NCBI RefSeq assembly: GCF_033962415.1
Contig: NZ_JAVIKH010000002.1
Coordinates: 1-64,000 of the forward strand
Reading direction: 5' to 3'
DNA length: 64,000 nt
Origin: Candidatus Cetobacterium colombiensis
GTDB taxonomy: Bacteria > Fusobacteriota > Fusobacteriia > Fusobacteriales > Fusobacteriaceae
In this document: one piece after another, positions 13,778-58,066 of the stretch
Layout of the letters: each line of letters starts with the position of its first letter
Numbering within the stretch: the stretch's first letter is position 1
The notes under the pieces: model-generated
Seen by the model: the letters and a program-made list of their open reading frames with translations, nothing else
Told to the model about the DNA's origin: nothing
The model's database searches: none
Position numbers and translations under genes: made by a program

Positions 13778-13828
13778 AAATTTTACAAAAAAAAAATTAC
13801 ACTTATTGTATATGACCATACAACTTGT
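13778..13828 (-). terminator. Possible expression platform of riboswitch copy 2
   Basis: Minus strand GTTGTAT...ATACAAT forms a short stem just after the aptamer and is followed within ten bases by a run of ten T. This is consistent with a weak intrinsic terminator before the chaperone ribosome site GGGGAGG. Confidence 0.5.
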
Positions 13829-13892
13829 CCAACTGGCTGCCATTTTAAAGGCCCTATAGCTTTGCGTCCCTAAATTTCTCCAGGTTTGCGAT
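13829..13892 (-). ncRNA. Cyclic di-GMP-I riboswitch (GEMM-I), copy 2
   Basis: Minus strand order: CGCAAACC, a hairpin closed around GGAGAAATTT, the hallmark GGACGCAAAGC, then TATAGGGCCTTTAAAATGGC and AGCCAGTTG. The second half is nearly identical to copy 1 at 1712-1784, while the first hairpin differs with compensating changes, as expected for a conserved RNA. It heads the pilus operon (chaperone, pilin, assembly genes). A TATAAT at 13917-13912 is a plausible -10 box for its promoter. Confidence 0.88.
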
Positions 13893-14171
13893 ATTTTTTC
13901 TTTAGAACTTTATTATAAACTATTTTATACAAAAAAACTATTAGAAATTTTTTTATTTAAAAAAATTTTTTCTTCTAGAATAAAAATACGAACATTTTAT
14001 ACATTTTGTATTTTTTTTTAACTTATCAATTTGACAAAGAAAAAAATAAATTTCTGATATAATCAATTTGAGTCATTGTTAACATCCTTTCTATTATCCC
14101 CCTGTAGTTTAGTAGTGTTTATTACAAGGGTTATAATATCAAATTAAGGATTTATCTGTATTACCATATAC

Positions 14172-41100: not shown

Positions 41101-41412
41101 CTATAATTTTATAATGTAAAACTTTACTCCATTTATTACAATACTATCCTCTTTTTTCTTATGTATCTTATCAAACTTACTGTGAGTGTATCTTCTAACT
41201 AATTTAGCTGGATAATCTCTTGCAGTTTTCATTCCTATAAGTTCTATTGTACTTAGTAGCTCTACTCTGTCACTTGATACTAAATAGTCATCTATTCCAT
41301 GTGAAAATAAAACTCCCTTATAATAACCATCTGGTTTTATCATTTTAAAATTGAAATTCTTTCCTGTTTGTTTTACTAAGTACTGCCCTAAAGCAGATAT
41401 TTTTTCTTTCAT
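41101..41412 (-). CDS. Conserved-looking small cytoplasmic protein, unknown
   Basis: 103 aa, basic, no signal or membrane helix. Text such as FKMIKPDGYYKGVLFSHGIDDYLVSSDRVELLSTIELIG and RYTHSKFDKIHKKKEDSIVINGVKFYIIKL suggests a small alpha/beta fold, but I cannot assign it. It follows the cupredoxin gene by 16 bases with an AGAGGTAAG ribosome site and may share its message. Confidence 0.6.
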   Translation of the reverse strand: MKEKISALGQYLVKQTGKNFNFKMIKPDGYYKGVLFSHGIDDYLVSSDRVELLSTIELIGMKTARDYPAKLVRRYTHSKFDKIHKKKEDSIVINGVKFYIIKL

Positions 41413-41428
41413 TACTTACCTCTTTCAT

Positions 41429-41755
41429 TTATTCTACTTTTATTTTAAGATGCATATCTCTATGACCTGAACCACATCTTACTGTACATTTTGCTTCATA
41501 TTCTCCAACTTTAGTCGGTGTTATTTCAACTGATTCTGGCTTTCCTGGAGATGCTTCTAAATTAAATTTTAATTCCTTTGATCCCAATCCATGATCTCCA
41601 TCTTTACTAACTAATGTCAATTTAACAGTCTCATCTTTTTTTAACACAATCTCTTTAGGTTCATATCCCCAATCGTATGATGTTATTTCAATATCTTTTG
41701 CCAATAATGATGTTGATAAAAGTGCACATAAACTTAAAAATTTAAAAATTTTCAT
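41429..41755 (-). CDS. Periplasmic cupredoxin with CuA-like ligand motif
   Basis: 108 aa with a signal peptide (MKIFKFLSLCALLSTSLLA). The mature ~89 residues form a cupredoxin barrel: IEITSYDWGYEPKEIVLKKDE, SKDGDHGLGSKELKF with the first His, and CTVRCGSGHRDMHL, which fits C-x3-C-G-x2-H-x2-M, the ligand set of the binuclear CuA centre of cytochrome oxidase subunit II and nitrous-oxide reductase. No oxidase or reductase gene is nearby. It may be a copper chaperone, an electron carrier or a copper-buffering protein of an anaerobe. The copper set is seen; the role is open. Confidence 0.75.
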   Translation of the reverse strand: MKIFKFLSLCALLSTSLLAKDIEITSYDWGYEPKEIVLKKDETVKLTLVSKDGDHGLGSKELKFNLEASPGKPESVEITPTKVGEYEAKCTVRCGSGHRDMHLKIKVE

Positions 41756-41796: not shown

Positions 41797-41985
41797 CTAT
41801 AACTCTCTTTTCATTTTTTCACAGAACTTTTTTGTTTTTAAAGAGCACTCATTAACTTCTAGCTCTATCTTTTTTATACCTTCATCCTCTTCATTTAAGT
41901 GAGTTAGTAAAAAATAACCTAATCCTCTATTTTGATATTTTGGACAAATAAACATCTTCTCAACTTTAAAAGTTCCTTTTTCTTT
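41797..41985 (-). pseudogene. 3' remnant of a GNAT acetyltransferase gene
   Basis: An open stretch with no start codon encodes EKMFICPKYQNRGLGYFLL, the acetyl-CoA-binding R/Q-x-x-G-x-G/A motif, then ELEVNECSLKTKKFCEKM and a stop. It is the C-terminal half of an RimI-like acetyltransferase. Its 5' edge runs into the 3' end of the GGDEF/EAL gene in another frame, so a deletion has fused the two. It lacks a start and half the fold, so it is not functional. Confidence 0.75.
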
Positions 41986-44764
41986 TTCTGTTAAAAAAAT
42001 TGCTCCTTATATCTCTTTCAGGTTTTCCAAAATAATAACCTTGTCCATAACTTACTCCAATGTCAGTTAAAAATTCAAATTGATTCCTCGTTTCTATTCC
42101 TTCAGCTATAACCTTAAATTTTAAACTCTTTATCATATTAGTTAGTCCTATGTAAATATTTTTTCCTGACTCTAAATCATCATTCATACTACAAATCAAT
42201 GATTTATCGAATTTTATTATATCCACTGGAAGAGTTGTTAAAAGTCCTACTGTTGAGTACCCTGCAGTAAAATCATCTATTGAAAGATAAATTCCTCTTT
42301 CTTTTAATATATTTAATTTCTTAATTACATCATCTGGATTTTTTAAAAAAGTACTCTCTGTTATTTCAATTTCAATATTTTTTCCATCTACTGAATATCT
42401 ATCTAAAAGATTTAAAATATACTCAACTATATCATCTCTTTTAAATGTTTCTACTGAAATATTAAATGAAATTCTAAAATTTTTCTCAACTTTTTTATTT
42501 TCAAGAAGTTCTTTTACCTTTTTTATAGATTCTTCTGCAATTTTATAATCAATTTTATAAATAAGACCCAACTCTTCTGCCACAGGAATAAACTCTAATG
42601 GTGAAATATCTCCTAATTCTTGATTTTTCCATCTAGCTAGTGCTTCTACACCCATTCTTTTTTTAGTCTTTAAATCATACTTTCCTTGAAAAACAGGATA
42701 AAAATCTTCTGTCTTAAAGTTTTTCAAAAGATGTTCTATTGTTTTTTTTCTTTGATTTTTAACTATAAAACTTCGTGTAGCTTCTTCATACCAACCTTTT
42801 TTTTCTTTTTTAGATTTATACATAGCCATATCTGCATATTTAAATGCTCTTCTCATTGAAGCACTATCTGTTTTATAATAATATCCTAAACTAAATGATA
42901 TCTTATACTTTTCCATTAATTCTGATTTTTTAAATAATCTTTCTAGTTTCATCAATTTTAATTCTACATTCGTCTTATAACATGAAAATATATAAAATTC
43001 ATCCCCTGATATTCTAAATACATAATCACTTTTAAATACTTCTTTTAAATATCTTCCAGTTTCAATAAGGATTTCATCTCCATAATCATGTCCATAGCTA
43101 TCATTAACATTTTTAAAATTATTTAAATCTAAAAGTATTGCACAACCTTCAAGTTTGTCATTATTTTTACAAAACTCATTATAAACTCTTCGGCTATAAA
43201 GTCCTGTTAATTCATCTTGTAAAAGTTCTTCATTTTTCTTTTTCTGTTTTAAACTTTTTAGAGCCTGGTAACCTGATAAAAAAAGTAAAATTAAACAACT
43301 TGAAGCAATTAAGCTTATTAAACTTTTATGTTTTTCTTGTTCTAGTAAAAGTTCTTTTCTCATATTTAAATCAGAAATTTTCATAAATTCATTTAAATTA
43401 ACCATTCCTAAAATAGCTTTATCTAAAATGTTTCTTAAAAGTACATCGTCTTTATTTAAACCTAAATTTACAGGAACATTTTCAAAGATATCTATATCGT
43501 ATCTTTTTTTATCATAAACATCTGAGTTTAAAGACAATATTGTTGTGAGCTTATTATTTTTTAAATCTGCTATCATATTATTTTTATTTATATAAGTTCT
43601 TATATTTTTTCGTAAAAAATGTTCTTTCGCCAAACTTTCTTCTATACTATTTCTAATAACTCCCACTTTTTTAACTTTTGATGAATTTTTTAAATTTTCA
43701 ATTTGAAAAACATTTATATCATATATTTTTTTTGTAAATATAAAGTCTTTTTCTCTTTCAGCAGTTTTAGAAAGAGTTAAGACATCAATTTCTTTGTTTT
43801 TAAATTTTTCAAAAAGTTCCGACCATTCTCTTTTTCCTAATTGCTCTTCCTCTATCACCTTAATGTCTATTTTTTTCAGTAGACAATTTAATAAGCTTGG
43901 AATTAAGCCATGGAATTTGTTATCTTTAAAGGAAAAATTACTCATTTTTTCTATATCTGCATAGCCAATCTTAATTCTTGGTTGAGATTTTAAATATTCT
44001 TTCTCCTCTTCTGTTAAAGAGTTGTAAAATTTTTCTTTAAAAAAATTATTTCTTCTCTTTTTCAGCCACTCTTCAATTTCATTATTGTATTTTTCATCAA
44101 GAGCATTATTTATTATAGTTTTTAGATTTCTATACTCTTGTTTTAATCCAATTGAAGGATCTGGTAGCCTTCCCACATTTATTTTATTAACTTCTTCCAA
44201 AGTATTCACATTTGTATCTGCAAAATATGGATACTTTTTTAAATCTACATCATCAACTTCTTTTATTTCAATATCTAAATCATTTCTTTTCTTAAAACGT
44301 TCTAAAAAGTTTTTATCTATACTATCTCTTGTAACACTAACTTTTAAACCTTTTAAATCATATGGGTCATTTAAAGTTCTTTTTTTAGATACAACAACTA
44401 AATTTTCCTCTAATAATTTATTTGAAAATATTGCAAAACTCTCACGTTCATTTGTTTTAGTTAAAAAACTGACCATATCTATTTTCCCATTTTCAAATTC
44501 CTCATAAATCTTTTCCCAGCCTTCTCTTTTTTCCTCTATGTTTAATCCTAAGTAACTTATTAACATATCTTCTATTATATCATTTAAAGATTTCCCATCT
44601 ATCTTTTCATTTGCAAAATAATCTTTTCTTACTCCTAAAGTTAATTTTTTTTGCCTTATTTTATTAAGATATTCTCGTTCTCCCTTACTTCTAGGAACGT
44701 ACTGATCCATAGAACTTAAAAAAGTAAAACACAAAAAGAAGACTATTAGTATTCTTTTAATCAT
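41966..44764 (-). CDS. Dual periplasmic-sensor GGDEF/EAL protein (c-di-GMP phosphodiesterase)
   Basis: 932 aa. Signal peptide/helix at 1-18, then two PBPb-type solute-binding domains (~25-245 and ~260-470; LTLGVRKDYFANEK and RIKIGYADIEKMSNFSF start them), a membrane helix near 483-500, a GGDEF domain with VFRISGDEFYIF (~586; SGDEF, so degenerate at the first Gly), and an EAL domain. The EAL catalytic set is complete: GVEALARW (~706), FNIS, EITES, SIDDFTAGYS, DIIKFDKS, VIAEGIE and GYYFGKP. It should hydrolyse c-di-GMP in response to an extracellular ligand. It lies in the same window as two c-di-GMP riboswitches. The last ten residues (FFNRKRKRNF) overlap the GNAT remnant and may be altered. 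Confidence 0.88.
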   Translation of the reverse strand: MIKRILIVFFLCFTFLSSMDQYVPRSKGEREYLNKIRQKKLTLGVRKDYFANEKIDGKSLNDIIEDMLISYLGLNIEEKREGWEKIYEEFENGKIDMVSFLTKTNERESFAIFSNKLLEENLVVVSKKRTLNDPYDLKGLKVSVTRDSIDKNFLERFKKRNDLDIEIKEVDDVDLKKYPYFADTNVNTLEEVNKINVGRLPDPSIGLKQEYRNLKTIINNALDEKYNNEIEEWLKKRRNNFFKEKFYNSLTEEEKEYLKSQPRIKIGYADIEKMSNFSFKDNKFHGLIPSLLNCLLKKIDIKVIEEEQLGKREWSELFEKFKNKEIDVLTLSKTAEREKDFIFTKKIYDINVFQIENLKNSSKVKKVGVIRNSIEESLAKEHFLRKNIRTYINKNNMIADLKNNKLTTILSLNSDVYDKKRYDIDIFENVPVNLGLNKDDVLLRNILDKAILGMVNLNEFMKISDLNMRKELLLEQEKHKSLISLIASSCLILLFLSGYQALKSLKQKKKNEELLQDELTGLYSRRVYNEFCKNNDKLEGCAILLDLNNFKNVNDSYGHDYGDEILIETGRYLKEVFKSDYVFRISGDEFYIFSCYKTNVELKLMKLERLFKKSELMEKYKISFSLGYYYKTDSASMRRAFKYADMAMYKSKKEKKGWYEEATRSFIVKNQRKKTIEHLLKNFKTEDFYPVFQGKYDLKTKKRMGVEALARWKNQELGDISPLEFIPVAEELGLIYKIDYKIAEESIKKVKELLENKKVEKNFRISFNISVETFKRDDIVEYILNLLDRYSVDGKNIEIEITESTFLKNPDDVIKKLNILKERGIYLSIDDFTAGYSTVGLLTTLPVDIIKFDKSLICSMNDDLESGKNIYIGLTNMIKSLKFKVIAEGIETRNQFEFLTDIGVSYGQGYYFGKPERDIRSNFFNRKRKRNF

Positions 44765-44778
44765 TAATCCCCCTCACT

Positions 44779-45081
44779 TTAAAGCTTTTTCAAAAATTTT
44801 TCTAACTCCTTTTCTATTTCTAAAATAGAAAAAAATCTTATTTTTTTTAAAATCTCCATTCCATCATAGTAAACAATTAAAACTGGAGTTACAAAGACCA
44901 TAAACTCTCCCGTCACTTCAGGATTCTTTTTTATATCAATTGGAAAAAATTTTGAATTTTCAAACTTTTTAGAAAGCTCCTCTAACCTAGGGAGCATACT
45001 ACCATCTACTCAACATTTCTTCTGACTATCATAGATGTATATAAATCCAAATTTTTCATATTTAAAAATTTCATAATTCAT
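44779..45081 (-). CDS. Thioredoxin-fold protein with in-frame UGA, candidate selenoprotein
   Basis: 100 codons from the ATG at 45081 (GGGAG ribosome site 8 bases upstream) to the stop at 44779. Codon 24 is TGA (45012-45010), directly after a Cys, giving FIYIYDSQKKC-U-VDGSMLPRLEE. The rest is a thioredoxin fold: FENSKFFPIDIKKNPEVTG, then the cis-Pro region FVTPVLIVYYDGMEIL. Related thioredoxins have CxVC at this point; here the second Cys is Asp and the residue after the first Cys is the UGA. A hairpin with a GGU loop follows at bacterial SECIS distance. The only downstream ATG (44997) has no ribosome site. A plain nonsense mutation is the alternative. Confidence 0.6.
44976..44995 (-). promoter_or_regulatory. 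bSECIS-like hairpin
   Basis: Minus strand GCTCC-CTA pairs with TAG-(A)-GGAGC: eight base pairs, one bulged A, and a GGT apical loop. The loop begins 22 bases after the UGA, within the range known for bacterial SECIS elements, and loops with GG/GU are the SelB-binding signature. Confidence 0.55.
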
Positions 45082-45139
45082 ATTAGTTTCTCCCTTCAAA
45101 TTTTAGTTTCCTTTAAATTATATCTCGAATTCTGTTTTT

Positions 45140-45260
45140 TTTCTGTGAACTACCACTGCCCTAAATAGAGGGCAGGGCTTCGTGGGAAGTACAGAACCAA
45201 TGTTCCGAATATTAATCACGCTCTACGGGTAGTTCCTACCCTGATATATATATTAATAGG
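45140..45260 (-). ncRNA. Probable omega/reRNA at the tnpB 3' end
   Basis: The ~110 bases after the tnpB stop are structured and more GC-rich than the surroundings, with paired GTAGGAACTACCCGTAG and GGTTCTGTACTTCCCAC segments and the right-end hairpin. TnpB guides are made from this position, with the guide lying past the element's right end. Predicted from family knowledge only. Confidence 0.45.
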
Positions 45261-46368
45261 CTAGTAAACTTCTACCAACCTCACGAATATTTATACTTGC
45301 GTTTAAATCTCTATCTATCTCTGAGTTACATTCATCACATTTGTAAACTCTTGTAGACAGTGACAACTCAGTTTTTATAGCACCACAAAACGAACAAGTT
45401 TTTGATGATGGAAACCACTTGTCAATTTTAATTACTTGTTTTCCTAAAAACATTGATTTGTATTGAAGCATAGTCGCAAACATTCCCCACCCGTTATCAG
45501 AGACAGATTTACCAAAGTTTAGTGCTCCACTCATACCTTTCATATTGAGATCTTCAATGATGATTGCGTTATACTTAGTTACAAGTTCATTTGATAATTT
45601 GTGTAAAAAATCTTTTCTACTGTTTTTGATTGTTTGGTGGATTTTAGCCACTTTTAATTTAGCCTTATTCCAATTTTGGGAAAACTTAATTTTTCTTGAT
45701 AATTCTCTTTGAGCTTTAGCTAATTTAGTTTCTAACTTTCTAAAAAATCTAGGATAGTCAGCTCTTTGGTTTTCAGAGCTAACAAATAATTCTGACATAG
45801 AAAAATCAAGCCCAACAATATTATTATCGCTTGGAGCTTCTTTAATATCCTTTTCAAACTCAGTTAGTAAAGAAACGTAGTAAGCACCATTAGGCTCTTG
45901 GCTAATAGTAGCTGATTTAATTACATAATTTTGAGGTATCTGTCTATGAAGCTTAATTCTAACTAAACCTAGCTTTGGGAGTTTTAAATAACTACCTTCA
46001 ACTCTAATATTATTACTTGTAGATACTGTATTATATGATTTTCTATTCGACCTTTTAGATTTGAACTTAGGAAAACTGGTTCTCTTTTGAAAGAAATTCT
46101 TATATGCAGTTTCTAAATTTTTAAGTGCTTGTTGTAACGCTATTGAATCAACCTCTTTTAAGAATGGTAATTCATTTTTAAGTAGAGGGAGTTCTTTAGC
46201 TTGAGTATTGTAAGTTACAGATTTTTTTTCTGTCTCATACAATTCTTTTCTCTGAGCTAAGAATCTATTATATACAAGTCTAACACAACCAAAAGTTGCA
46301 TTAATCGTATTCACTTGAATTTCATTAGGATAGATTCTATATTTAAAAGCTAAGTTATATGTCTTCAT
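45253..46368 (-). CDS. tnpB: RNA-guided nuclease TnpB
   Basis: 371 aa. The N-terminal region is typical (YRIYPNEIQVNTINATFGCVRLVYN). The split RuvC triad is intact: Asp in NNIVGLDFSMS (~189), Glu in IIIEDLNMKGM (~270) and Asp in EIDRDLNASINI (~353). The zinc finger CSFCG...CDEC is present (~325-345). Length is normal for TnpB (about 370-400). It should be an active omega-RNA-guided DNA nuclease that helps the element persist. Confidence 0.92.
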   Translation of the reverse strand: MKTYNLAFKYRIYPNEIQVNTINATFGCVRLVYNRFLAQRKELYETEKKSVTYNTQAKELPLLKNELPFLKEVDSIALQQALKNLETAYKNFFQKRTSFPKFKSKRSNRKSYNTVSTSNNIRVEGSYLKLPKLGLVRIKLHRQIPQNYVIKSATISQEPNGAYYVSLLTEFEKDIKEAPSDNNIVGLDFSMSELFVSSENQRADYPRFFRKLETKLAKAQRELSRKIKFSQNWNKAKLKVAKIHQTIKNSRKDFLHKLSNELVTKYNAIIIEDLNMKGMSGALNFGKSVSDNGWGMFATMLQYKSMFLGKQVIKIDKWFPSSKTCSFCGAIKTELSLSTRVYKCDECNSEIDRDLNASINIREVGRSLLAY

Positions 46369-46523: not shown

Positions 46524-46555
46524 TTTTTTAATAACATGTATTGGAGGTAAATATT

Positions 46556-46828
46556 ATGAAAAAGACACTATTTTTATTGCCTAACTGTGATGAATCTATC
46601 AAAGCTAAAGCCCTTTTTGAAAATAGAAATGATTTAACTATTTTTTATTTAAATGAAGCTAGCGAAGAAGCTAAAAAACTCCATGTTACTTCTGCTCCAA
46701 CTTTAGTTACTGAAGATTGGGAAAGTATCTCTAGATTTGTTGGTTTAGAAAAAATAAAAGAATATTTAAGTAGTGAAACAACACCTAAATATGCTTGTGC
46801 TTGTTCAGATGTAGATTATTTAAAATAA
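46556..46828 (+). CDS. Small thioredoxin/glutaredoxin-like protein
   Basis: 90 aa from the ATG at 46556, preferred for its GGAGG ribosome site. The fold is suggested by TLFLLPNCDESIKAKALFENR, with a single Cys at the glutaredoxin position, then VTSAPTLVTEDWESISRFVGLEKIKEYL with the cis-Pro SAPTL. The tail CACSDVD adds two cysteines. The usual CxxC is replaced by C-x-x-S (NCDES), so a monothiol mechanism or metal binding is likely. It lies 10 bases before the ankyrin gene. Confidence 0.65.
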   Translation: MKKTLFLLPNCDESIKAKALFENRNDLTIFYLNEASEEAKKLHVTSAPTLVTEDWESISRFVGLEKIKEYLSSETTPKYACACSDVDYLK

Positions 46829-56347: not shown

Positions 56348-58066
56348 TTAATATAAATAATATCTTTGTGCCAATGCAAATTCTTCTAGCGGATCACAAG
56401 TTATTAATTTTCCATCTATTGTTACTTCATATGTTTGTGGATCTATTTTTATATCTGGTAACTCTGCATTAAATTTCATATCTTTCTTAGTAAGATTTCT
56501 TAAATTTTCAACTGGTAAAACTATTTTTTCCAATCCTAATTTTTCTTTTACTCCATGCTCATAAGCATATTTTGACACGAAAGTTATATGAGAGTGATGT
56601 AATGCTTTTCCTTTTGCTCCATATAATTCACGAACTAATCTTGGCTCTGTAGTTGGTAAACTTGAACTTGCATCTCCCATTACTCCATAAGATATTGTTC
56701 CACATTTTAAAATCATCATAGGTTTTGTACCAAACATTTTTGGTTCCCATAAAACTAAATCTGCATATTTTCCTACTTCTACTGATCCAATATGAGTACT
56801 TATTCCTGAAACGATAGCTGGATTTATTGTATATTTAGCCACAAATCTTTTTATTCTATTGTTATCTGAATATTCGCTGTCCCCTTCTAAAGGTCCACGT
56901 TGTTTTTTCATTTTGTCAGCTAATTGCCATGTTTTCATATTTACTTCTCCAATTCTTCCCATGGCCATAGTATCTGAACTCATCATACTTATAACACCCA
57001 TATCGTGTAAAACATCCTCAGCTGCTATTGTTTGTTTTCTTATTCTTGAATCTGCAAATGCCACGTCTTCTGGTATTTTTGGATCTAAGTGGTGACAAAC
57101 CATTAACATATCAAGTTCTTCTGGAACACTATTTTTTCCATAAGGATTTGTTGGACTTGTAGATGATGGTAATACATTTAAGTGACTTGCCATTACCATT
57201 ATATCTGGAGCATGTCCTCCTCCAGCACCTTCAGTGTGATATGTGTGAATTGTTCTTCCTGCAATTGCATTTAATGTATGCTCAACAAATCCACCTTCAT
57301 TTAATGAATCTGTATGGATTGCAACTTGAACATCATATTTATCTGCAGCTCTTAATGTATAATCTATACCAGCTTGTGTTGCTCCCCAGTCCTCATGTAT
57401 TTTTAAACCTACAGCTCCTGCTTCTATTTGCTCCGCTATAACTCTTTCATTATCTCCAGCTCCTTTACCTAAAATACCAATATTTATAGGTAAATCATCA
57501 TGTGATTGTAACAATCTTTCTATATGCCAAGCACCTGGAGTTGCTGTTGCAGAACGCGTACCATCTGCAGGTCCTGTTCCTCCTGCTATTATCGTTGTAA
57601 TTCCATTATCTAAAGCAGCATGAACTATATCTGGTGTAATTAAGTGAACATGTGTATCTATTCCACCGGCAGTTACTATAAGTCCCTCTCCTGCTATCGA
57701 TTCTGTACTTGCTCCTACAACAAAATCTATATTATCCATTAAATCTGGATTTCCACCTTTTCCTATAGCAATTATTCTTCCATCTCTTATTCCTATATCT
57801 GCTTTATATACTCCAGTGTAATCTATTATTACTACACTATTTATTATTGTGTCAACAACTAAAGGATTTCCTTCTCTAGTTTCTATAGGATTTAATCCCA
57901 TACCATCTCTTAGAGTTTTTCCTCCTCCAAATTTTGATTCCTCTCCATATACTGTTAAATCTTTCTCTACTCTTGCAAATAAATTGGTATCTCCTAGTCT
58001 TATACTATCTCCTGTTGTAGGACCAAACATATCCGAATATTTTTTTCTATCCATCTCAAAACTCAT
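56348..58066 (-). CDS. ureC: Urease alpha subunit UreC
   Basis: 572 aa, full length. Nickel ligands are in [12 protein letters not shown] (~133-144), the carbamylated Lys in [12 protein letters not shown] (~220), HTDSLNEGG and [18 protein letters not shown], and Asp in [12 protein letters not shown]. The flap region [22 protein letters not shown] is present. It hydrolyses urea to ammonia and carbamate in the cytoplasm. It follows ureB by 12 bases. Confidence 0.97.

Follow-up and report, generated by a model that had tools for sequence, protein, structure and literature searches.

According to a 2026 inventory, prokaryotes possess 119 selenoprotein families and subfamilies (PMC13188914). In Table 1 of that inventory, the selenocysteine (Sec) thioredoxin (PF00085) carries the motif UxxC, and UXX-star, VPGUxxT and SaoT are thioredoxin- or glutaredoxin-like Sec proteins, some of them with no cysteine in the listed motif. 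The motif CxxU is reported for a Trx-like family (PMC2398784). The same Table 1 also includes proteins in which Cys and Sec are direct neighbours, namely the Csac_0668 type, SaoL, SaoC, SaoB (CUxxT), HgcA, MbdU and KCU-star.

Here we describe a putative thioredoxin-like selenoprotein gene of Candidatus Cetobacterium colombiensis. The gene is located in a stretch of DNA of 64,000 nucleotides, hereafter the window, which belongs to a genome of 2.80 Mb in 92 contigs (G000). The genus Cetobacterium is common in fish guts. Sequence comparisons indicate that the locus is very probably a thioredoxin-fold gene that inserts Sec by means of a bSECIS hairpin, with single-selenol chemistry as its most likely mode of action. 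The features of the gene are as follows.

44779..45081, minus strand: putative coding sequence of the thioredoxin-like selenoprotein, 100 residues including Sec24, stop codon TAA at 44781-44779 (read-through translation, eight homologues, dN/dS, fold)
45010..45012, minus strand: in-frame UGA, codon 24, probably Sec (8/8 close homologues; tRNA-Sec, SelA, SelB and SelD present)
45090..45096, minus strand: Shine-Dalgarno-like AAGGGAG, spacing to the ATG 8 nt (sequence; G-rich sites ahead of most homologues)
44976..44995, minus strand: predicted bSECIS hairpin, 8 bp with a bulged A, loop GGU at 44987-44985 (fold, criteria scan, covariation, synonymous recoding)

The interrupted frame and its conservation

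The frame opens with an ATG (45081-45079, minus strand) and contains a single UGA, 69 nt past the start codon; translation of this TGA as one residue gives a protein of 100 amino acids. Under the standard code the gene is visible only as an ORF of its last 72 codons, which starts mid-fold, and gene-finding pipelines would presumably truncate the gene at the UGA. A first-pass annotation of the window had placed a ribosome site 69 bases before the UGA. The site exists, but the distance of 69 nt is that between the start codon and the UGA, and the site itself lies about 80 nt upstream.

The AlphaFold2 model of the Sec protein adopts a thioredoxin fold (mean pLDDT 77.5, pTM 0.69), the first strand of which precedes the UGA. 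Many thioredoxins match this model (best Foldseek E 1.1e-5), and the best VIA-align superposition reaches a Z of 11.7 over 94 residues at 2.5 A. Hence the thioredoxin-like character initially ascribed to both halves of the frame holds for the whole chain. The scores of the window protein with thioredoxin family models are below the cut-offs: 21.0 versus 23.5 bits for Pfam PF00085 and, among NCBIfam models, 21.9 versus 96.8 for TIGR01068 and 26.9 versus 140 for NF047697.

A six-frame search with the read-through protein as query was performed in 98 genomes of Fusobacteriota, the phylum of the window. Matches at E values up to 0.01 were obtained in 78 genomes and the UGA gene was found in eight: seven of the 12 genomes of the genus (that of the window, G004, G005, G008, G009, G011 and G012) and, from another genus, G002. 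The close homologues are 53-78% identical to the window protein. In each of the eight best homologues the only stop is a TGA, which occupies a common alignment column in all eight. This strongly supports the candidate selenoprotein proposed at 44779-45081, on the minus strand. Sister strains with a sense codon at this position had been named beforehand as evidence that would count against the proposal; in the 98 genomes searched, no homologue of the UGA group has a sense codon in this column. The search did not find the gene in the genus members G006, G007, G010, G013 and G014, where it gave weak thioredoxin-like matches or none. In a tree of 17 proteins, a branch with a support of 99/99 separates the eight UGA proteins from the rest. 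Furthermore, a wider collection of genome contigs contained seven related loci, two from Cetobacterium with the UGA and five with a sense-codon CxxC site, of which one is from an uncultured bacterium and four are titled Bacteroidales, Muribaculaceae or Prevotellaceae.

Comparison of the window gene with its four nearest sisters (L010-L013) gave a dN of 0.21-0.28 and a dS of 0.60-1.00 for the 18 codons that precede the UGA, and a dN of 0.09-0.13 and a dS of 0.62-0.88 for the 76 codons that follow; L014 gave no computable dS for the upstream part. As dN is lower than dS on both flanks, the frame is therefore under protein-level constraint on either side of the UGA. These data bear on the possibility that the UGA is an ordinary stop, which would leave a pseudogene, or a 23-residue peptide together with a fragment of about 72 residues that has its own start. 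The genome uses TGA as a normal stop, as at the end of six of the 37 long ORFs of the window, and an ATG or GTG is present five codons past the UGA in all eight homologues, so that reinitiation of the shorter fragment is conceivable. Yet such a fragment would be devoid of the first strand and no ribosome site is seen before its ATG or GTG; moreover, one nonsense codon is retained in eight species with both flanks in frame and dN below dS, and the codons of the hairpin described below are frozen. We consider an ordinary stop very improbable.

The hairpin and the selenocysteine machinery

The first-pass annotation had pointed to a hairpin with a GGU loop and a bulge 22 bases past the UGA, and folding bears this out. 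The hairpin sequence (44995-44976, minus strand) is GCUCCCUA-GGU-UAG-A-GGAGC, with a loop of 3 nt and one bulged A; its stem starts 14 nt and its loop 22 nt from the UGA. For bSECIS elements, the Fig 2A legend of PMC13188914 gives a loop of 3-9 nt with G in its first two positions, an upper stem of 4-16 bp, a distance of 16-37 nt from the UGA and an energy of at most -7.5 kcal/mol. Measured against these published criteria, the window hairpin lies within the limits in all four respects (a 3-nt GGU loop on a stem of 8 bp, 22 nt from the UGA, with an energy of -8.2 to -9.4 kcal/mol). Among the 2193 UGA triplets of the window, counted on both strands and in any frame, 17 pass the four criteria and 18 are preceded by at least 20 and followed by at least 60 open codons; the UGA at 45012-45010 is the only one in both sets. 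In two homologues the energy of the core falls short of the -7.5 kcal/mol criterion (L014, -7.3; L016, -6.3 kcal/mol). The Rfam search of the window revealed no SECIS family at the gathering threshold.

The folding stability of the hairpin is modest, with z values of -0.77 to -1.22 and 20 to 44 of 200 dinucleotide shuffles folding equally well; the hairpin stands out by its placement, conservation and codon choice, not by raw stability. Codons +6 to +11 past the UGA are identical in six species, third bases included; rare codons are among them, with CTC accounting for 0.7% of the Leu codons and AGG for 6.5% of those for Arg in the long ORFs of the window. When the region was recoded synonymously, with the amino acids kept and the codon usage of the window applied, 0 to 29 of the 2000 recodings per species folded the core at least as stably, depending on the species. 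The apical loop starts with GG in all eight homologues. The two most divergent sequences each form an unbulged helix, CUCUCUA-GGA-UAGAGAG in L015 and CUUUCUA-GGU-UAGAAAG in L016. RNAalifold analysis on the bulged structure showed two pairs with compensated changes on both sides, one pair that fails in two of the eight rows and another that fails in one, the failures arising because the two divergent sequences form the unbulged helix instead. Since the helix is re-paired in these two sequences only, the support from covariation comes from two sequences.

The first-pass annotation recommended a check for selA, selB, selD and tRNA-Sec and regarded absence of the machinery as grounds to reject the proposal. 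All four are present above curated cut-offs in the genome of the window: tRNA-Sec with 68.6 bits versus 47, SelB with 290.4 versus 242.25, SelA with 576.7 versus 267.9 and SelD with 373.1 versus 125. They are clustered within about 8 kb on contig C3. The selD gene itself has a UGA at codon 13 (C-S-I-G-G-U) that needs read-through, with a GGA-loop hairpin 17 nt downstream, and is an internal positive control. tRNA-Sec exceeded the Rfam cut-off in 11 of 14 genomes tested, comprising all eight with the UGA gene and three of six with the Cys form, and SelB exceeded its cut-off in 52 of the 98 Fusobacteriota genomes, including all eight with the UGA gene. Two proteins of 194 and 91 amino acids are encoded between selB and tRNA-Sec (C3:51539-52398); the start of the 194-residue protein (MIKVNATGQTCPIPVI) is presumably YedF-like. 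A search of the same genome for the GrdB family (PF07355) gave no match, but the controls likewise remained without a match.

Without selenium, the UGA could be decoded as another residue, for instance by means of a suppressor tRNA, or be skipped by a frameshift, and read-through of this kind would conserve the frame as well. It is scarcely credible in a genome with the full Sec machinery, where a bSECIS-type hairpin lies at the right distance, the cysteine relatives carry redox residues at the Sec site and TGA terminates other genes. On comparative grounds, the UGA of 45081-44779 is almost certainly read as Sec. We propose that SelB and Sec-tRNA-Sec would bind the hairpin, leading to Sec insertion at residue 24.

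The active site, its possible chemistry and the gene neighbourhood

The motif U-V-D-G is invariant in the eight homologues, in which CxxC, UxxC and CxxU are lacking. Three residues past the Sec, where the UxxC of Sec thioredoxin has its Cys, all eight have Gly. The residue preceding the Sec is Cys in five homologues (the window, G004, G005, G009 and G011) and Thr, Asn and Lys in G008, G012 and G002, respectively; these three proteins have no cysteine elsewhere, Sec aside. The Sec is therefore invariant and its neighbour is not, and only some members of the family have the vicinal pair. The first-pass annotation had taken a vicinal Cys-Sec pair (C-U-V-D) as the defining feature of the active site, which does not hold with Cys in only five of the eight homologues, and had noted no earlier description of such a pair. 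Mammalian thioredoxin reductase, with its GCUG, is a further case of vicinal Cys and Sec. The novelty of the pair is likewise contradicted by the CU motifs of several families in Table 1 of PMC13188914. The occurrence of these neighbours in other families, and of C-U in five of the eight homologues, the window included, would be consistent with the vicinal pair as the working unit, with selenenylsulfide cycling between residues 23 and 24. Nevertheless, since three of the eight have Thr, Asn or Lys before the Sec and no cysteine elsewhere, the pair cannot be required by the family as a whole, and we regard this mode of action as unlikely.

A look for Cys or Sec homologues at the site, also suggested at first reading, yielded the Sec column in all eight homologues and relatives with C-x-V-C, but the register of the Sec to the cysteines differs by alignment. 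In MAFFT alignment A3, which has a 2-residue insertion, the Sec falls on the second Cys, and in MAFFT alignment A5 it falls on the residue next after the first Cys. In the model of the Sec protein, Sec24 is located in the loop just ahead of helix 26-38, with low local confidence (mean pLDDT 65 for residues 21-30). The predicted model of a Cys relative (L059), with a mean pLDDT of only 67.4, has a helix at residues 34-49 and Cys at 33 and 36, and the helix starts of the two models favour no single register. Alignments and models taken together, the Sec may be equivalent to either Cys of C-x-V-C or to the residue that follows the first one.

The product would thus be a thioredoxin-fold protein of 100 residues with the Sec in the loop ahead of the first active-site helix, and the invariant U-V-D-G would stand where the Cys relatives have C-x-V-C. 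A redox role for the Sec is quite likely. The Sec selenol would attack a disulfide or a peroxide, the intermediate would be resolved by an outside thiol or the thioredoxin system, and in the five species with a neighbouring Cys it is perhaps this residue that resolves. As no second Cys is conserved, a single selenol is the most likely chemistry, and we lean slightly towards such chemistry combined with resolution from outside. A more specific history, to which we give somewhat less than even weight, is that of a lone Sec in U-V-D-G, one step off the position of the first Cys and peroxidase- or glutaredoxin-like, with the two-Cys site abandoned and a resolving Cys gained in part of the genus. 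Orthologues with and without the vicinal Cys provide a means to test the selenol chemistry. If the proposed history is true, C-x-V-C, lone Sec and Cys-Sec would make up a natural series in which the contribution of a vicinal thiol to a selenol could be tested in one scaffold.

The genes around the Sec gene are the following.

45253..46368, minus strand: IS200/IS605-type TnpB gene, upstream of the Sec gene and separated from it by 171 nt (45082-45252; Pfam, NCBIfam, upstream alignment)
41966..44764, minus strand: 932-aa protein with SBP_bac_3, GGDEF and EAL domains, 14 nt past the stop codon of the Sec gene (Pfam, neighbourhood comparison)
41429-41755, minus strand: cupredoxin-like protein, accompanying the Sec gene in only five loci (Pfam, neighbourhood comparison)
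41101-41412, minus strand: 103-aa protein with no Pfam match, next after the cupredoxin-like gene and likewise conserved near the Sec gene in just five loci

The SBP/GGDEF/EAL gene, perhaps co-transcribed with the Sec gene in the window, lies downstream of it in only five of the eight loci. The three downstream neighbours were considered as a clue to the substrate and discarded, as the arrangement is confined to five closely related loci and G008, G012 and G002 differ. Upstream, where the window has the TnpB gene, a divergent lipoprotein-like gene is found in four sisters, and the similarity between the window and the sisters fades beyond about 60 nt. Thus the expression of the window copy may have changed, and its transcription may now depend on the TnpB insertion. 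With respect to a conserved promoter, two sigma-70-like matches were found around the Sec gene, no more than in shuffles.

Several other elements of the window were recorded. Two c-di-GMP-I riboswitch aptamers score over the Rfam cut-off (1713-1788 and 13825-13900, both minus strand), in the same window as the SBP/GGDEF/EAL gene, and an RF02514 (5' ureB sRNA) match at 57616-57913, plus strand, has 43.5 bits versus a cut-off of 40. In addition, a small protein encoded at 46541-46828, plus strand, which we call glutaredoxin-like by inference and which has no Pfam or NCBIfam match, carries NCDES near its N-terminus, where the second Cys of the NCDSC of its relatives in G004, G005 and G009 is lost; a C-A-C near the C-terminus is kept.

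Comparison with described thioredoxins and selenoproteins

The C-x-V-C relatives (L017-L022, from G041, G042, G044, G045, G046 and G053) are related at the level of Fusobacteriaceae and resemble the Sec protein in length and fold family. They are 36-42% identical to the window protein and share with it G58, F60, F63, P66 and RFF 82-84. In contrast to the Sec gene, they have sense codons only and a loop before the helix that is two residues shorter; three of the six genomes are without tRNA-Sec and SelB above cut-off. The best sequence-profile matches in the PDB are Bacillus cereus BCE_0499 (4euy, E 1.4e-10) and Thermosipho thioredoxin 1 (6mos, E 2.5e-10), both with C-x-V-C in the alignments and no Sec, unlike the Cetobacterium U-V-D-G.

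No U-V-D-G thioredoxin-like entry appears in the accessible text of PMC13188914, the families of Haft and co-authors being covered as listed in its Table 1 and in NCBIfam. None of the selenoprotein models of NCBIfam 20.0 matched any of the eight proteins up to E = 1 with HMMER filters on, and this includes the models for UXX-star, VPGUxxT and SaoT (NF041114, NF041211, NF041383 and NF040730). The accessible text of PMC1794560, PMC5029168 and PMC12013277 names no Cetobacterium case. Literature searches for Cetobacterium with selenocysteine revealed, judging by the listing, no Cetobacterium selenoprotein, and those for Cetobacterium with selB returned nothing. Methods based on Cys/Sec pairs need the UGA to be aligned to a Cys in relatives (PMC13188914). 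Owing to the loop change, one of the two alignments does not place the UGA on the Cys column, which may explain why the gene is absent from the inventories consulted. It would likely add a selenoprotein subfamily to the genus Cetobacterium.

With the Sec thioredoxin (UxxC) and the Trx-like family with CxxU, as they are described in the sources cited above, the Cetobacterium protein has in common the thioredoxin fold and a Sec at the active-site loop, and it differs from them in its U-V-D-G without a second Cys. With the vicinal CU selenoproteins of Table 1 (SaoL, SaoC, SaoB, HgcA, MbdU, KCU-star and the Csac_0668 type), five of the eight homologues share the C-U. Those proteins, however, have other domains, and in the Cetobacterium family the Cys is not conserved. 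Judged by its sequence against the families listed so far, the Cetobacterium protein thus appears to represent a new thioredoxin-like selenoprotein subfamily with a changed active site, within a general kind that is already known.
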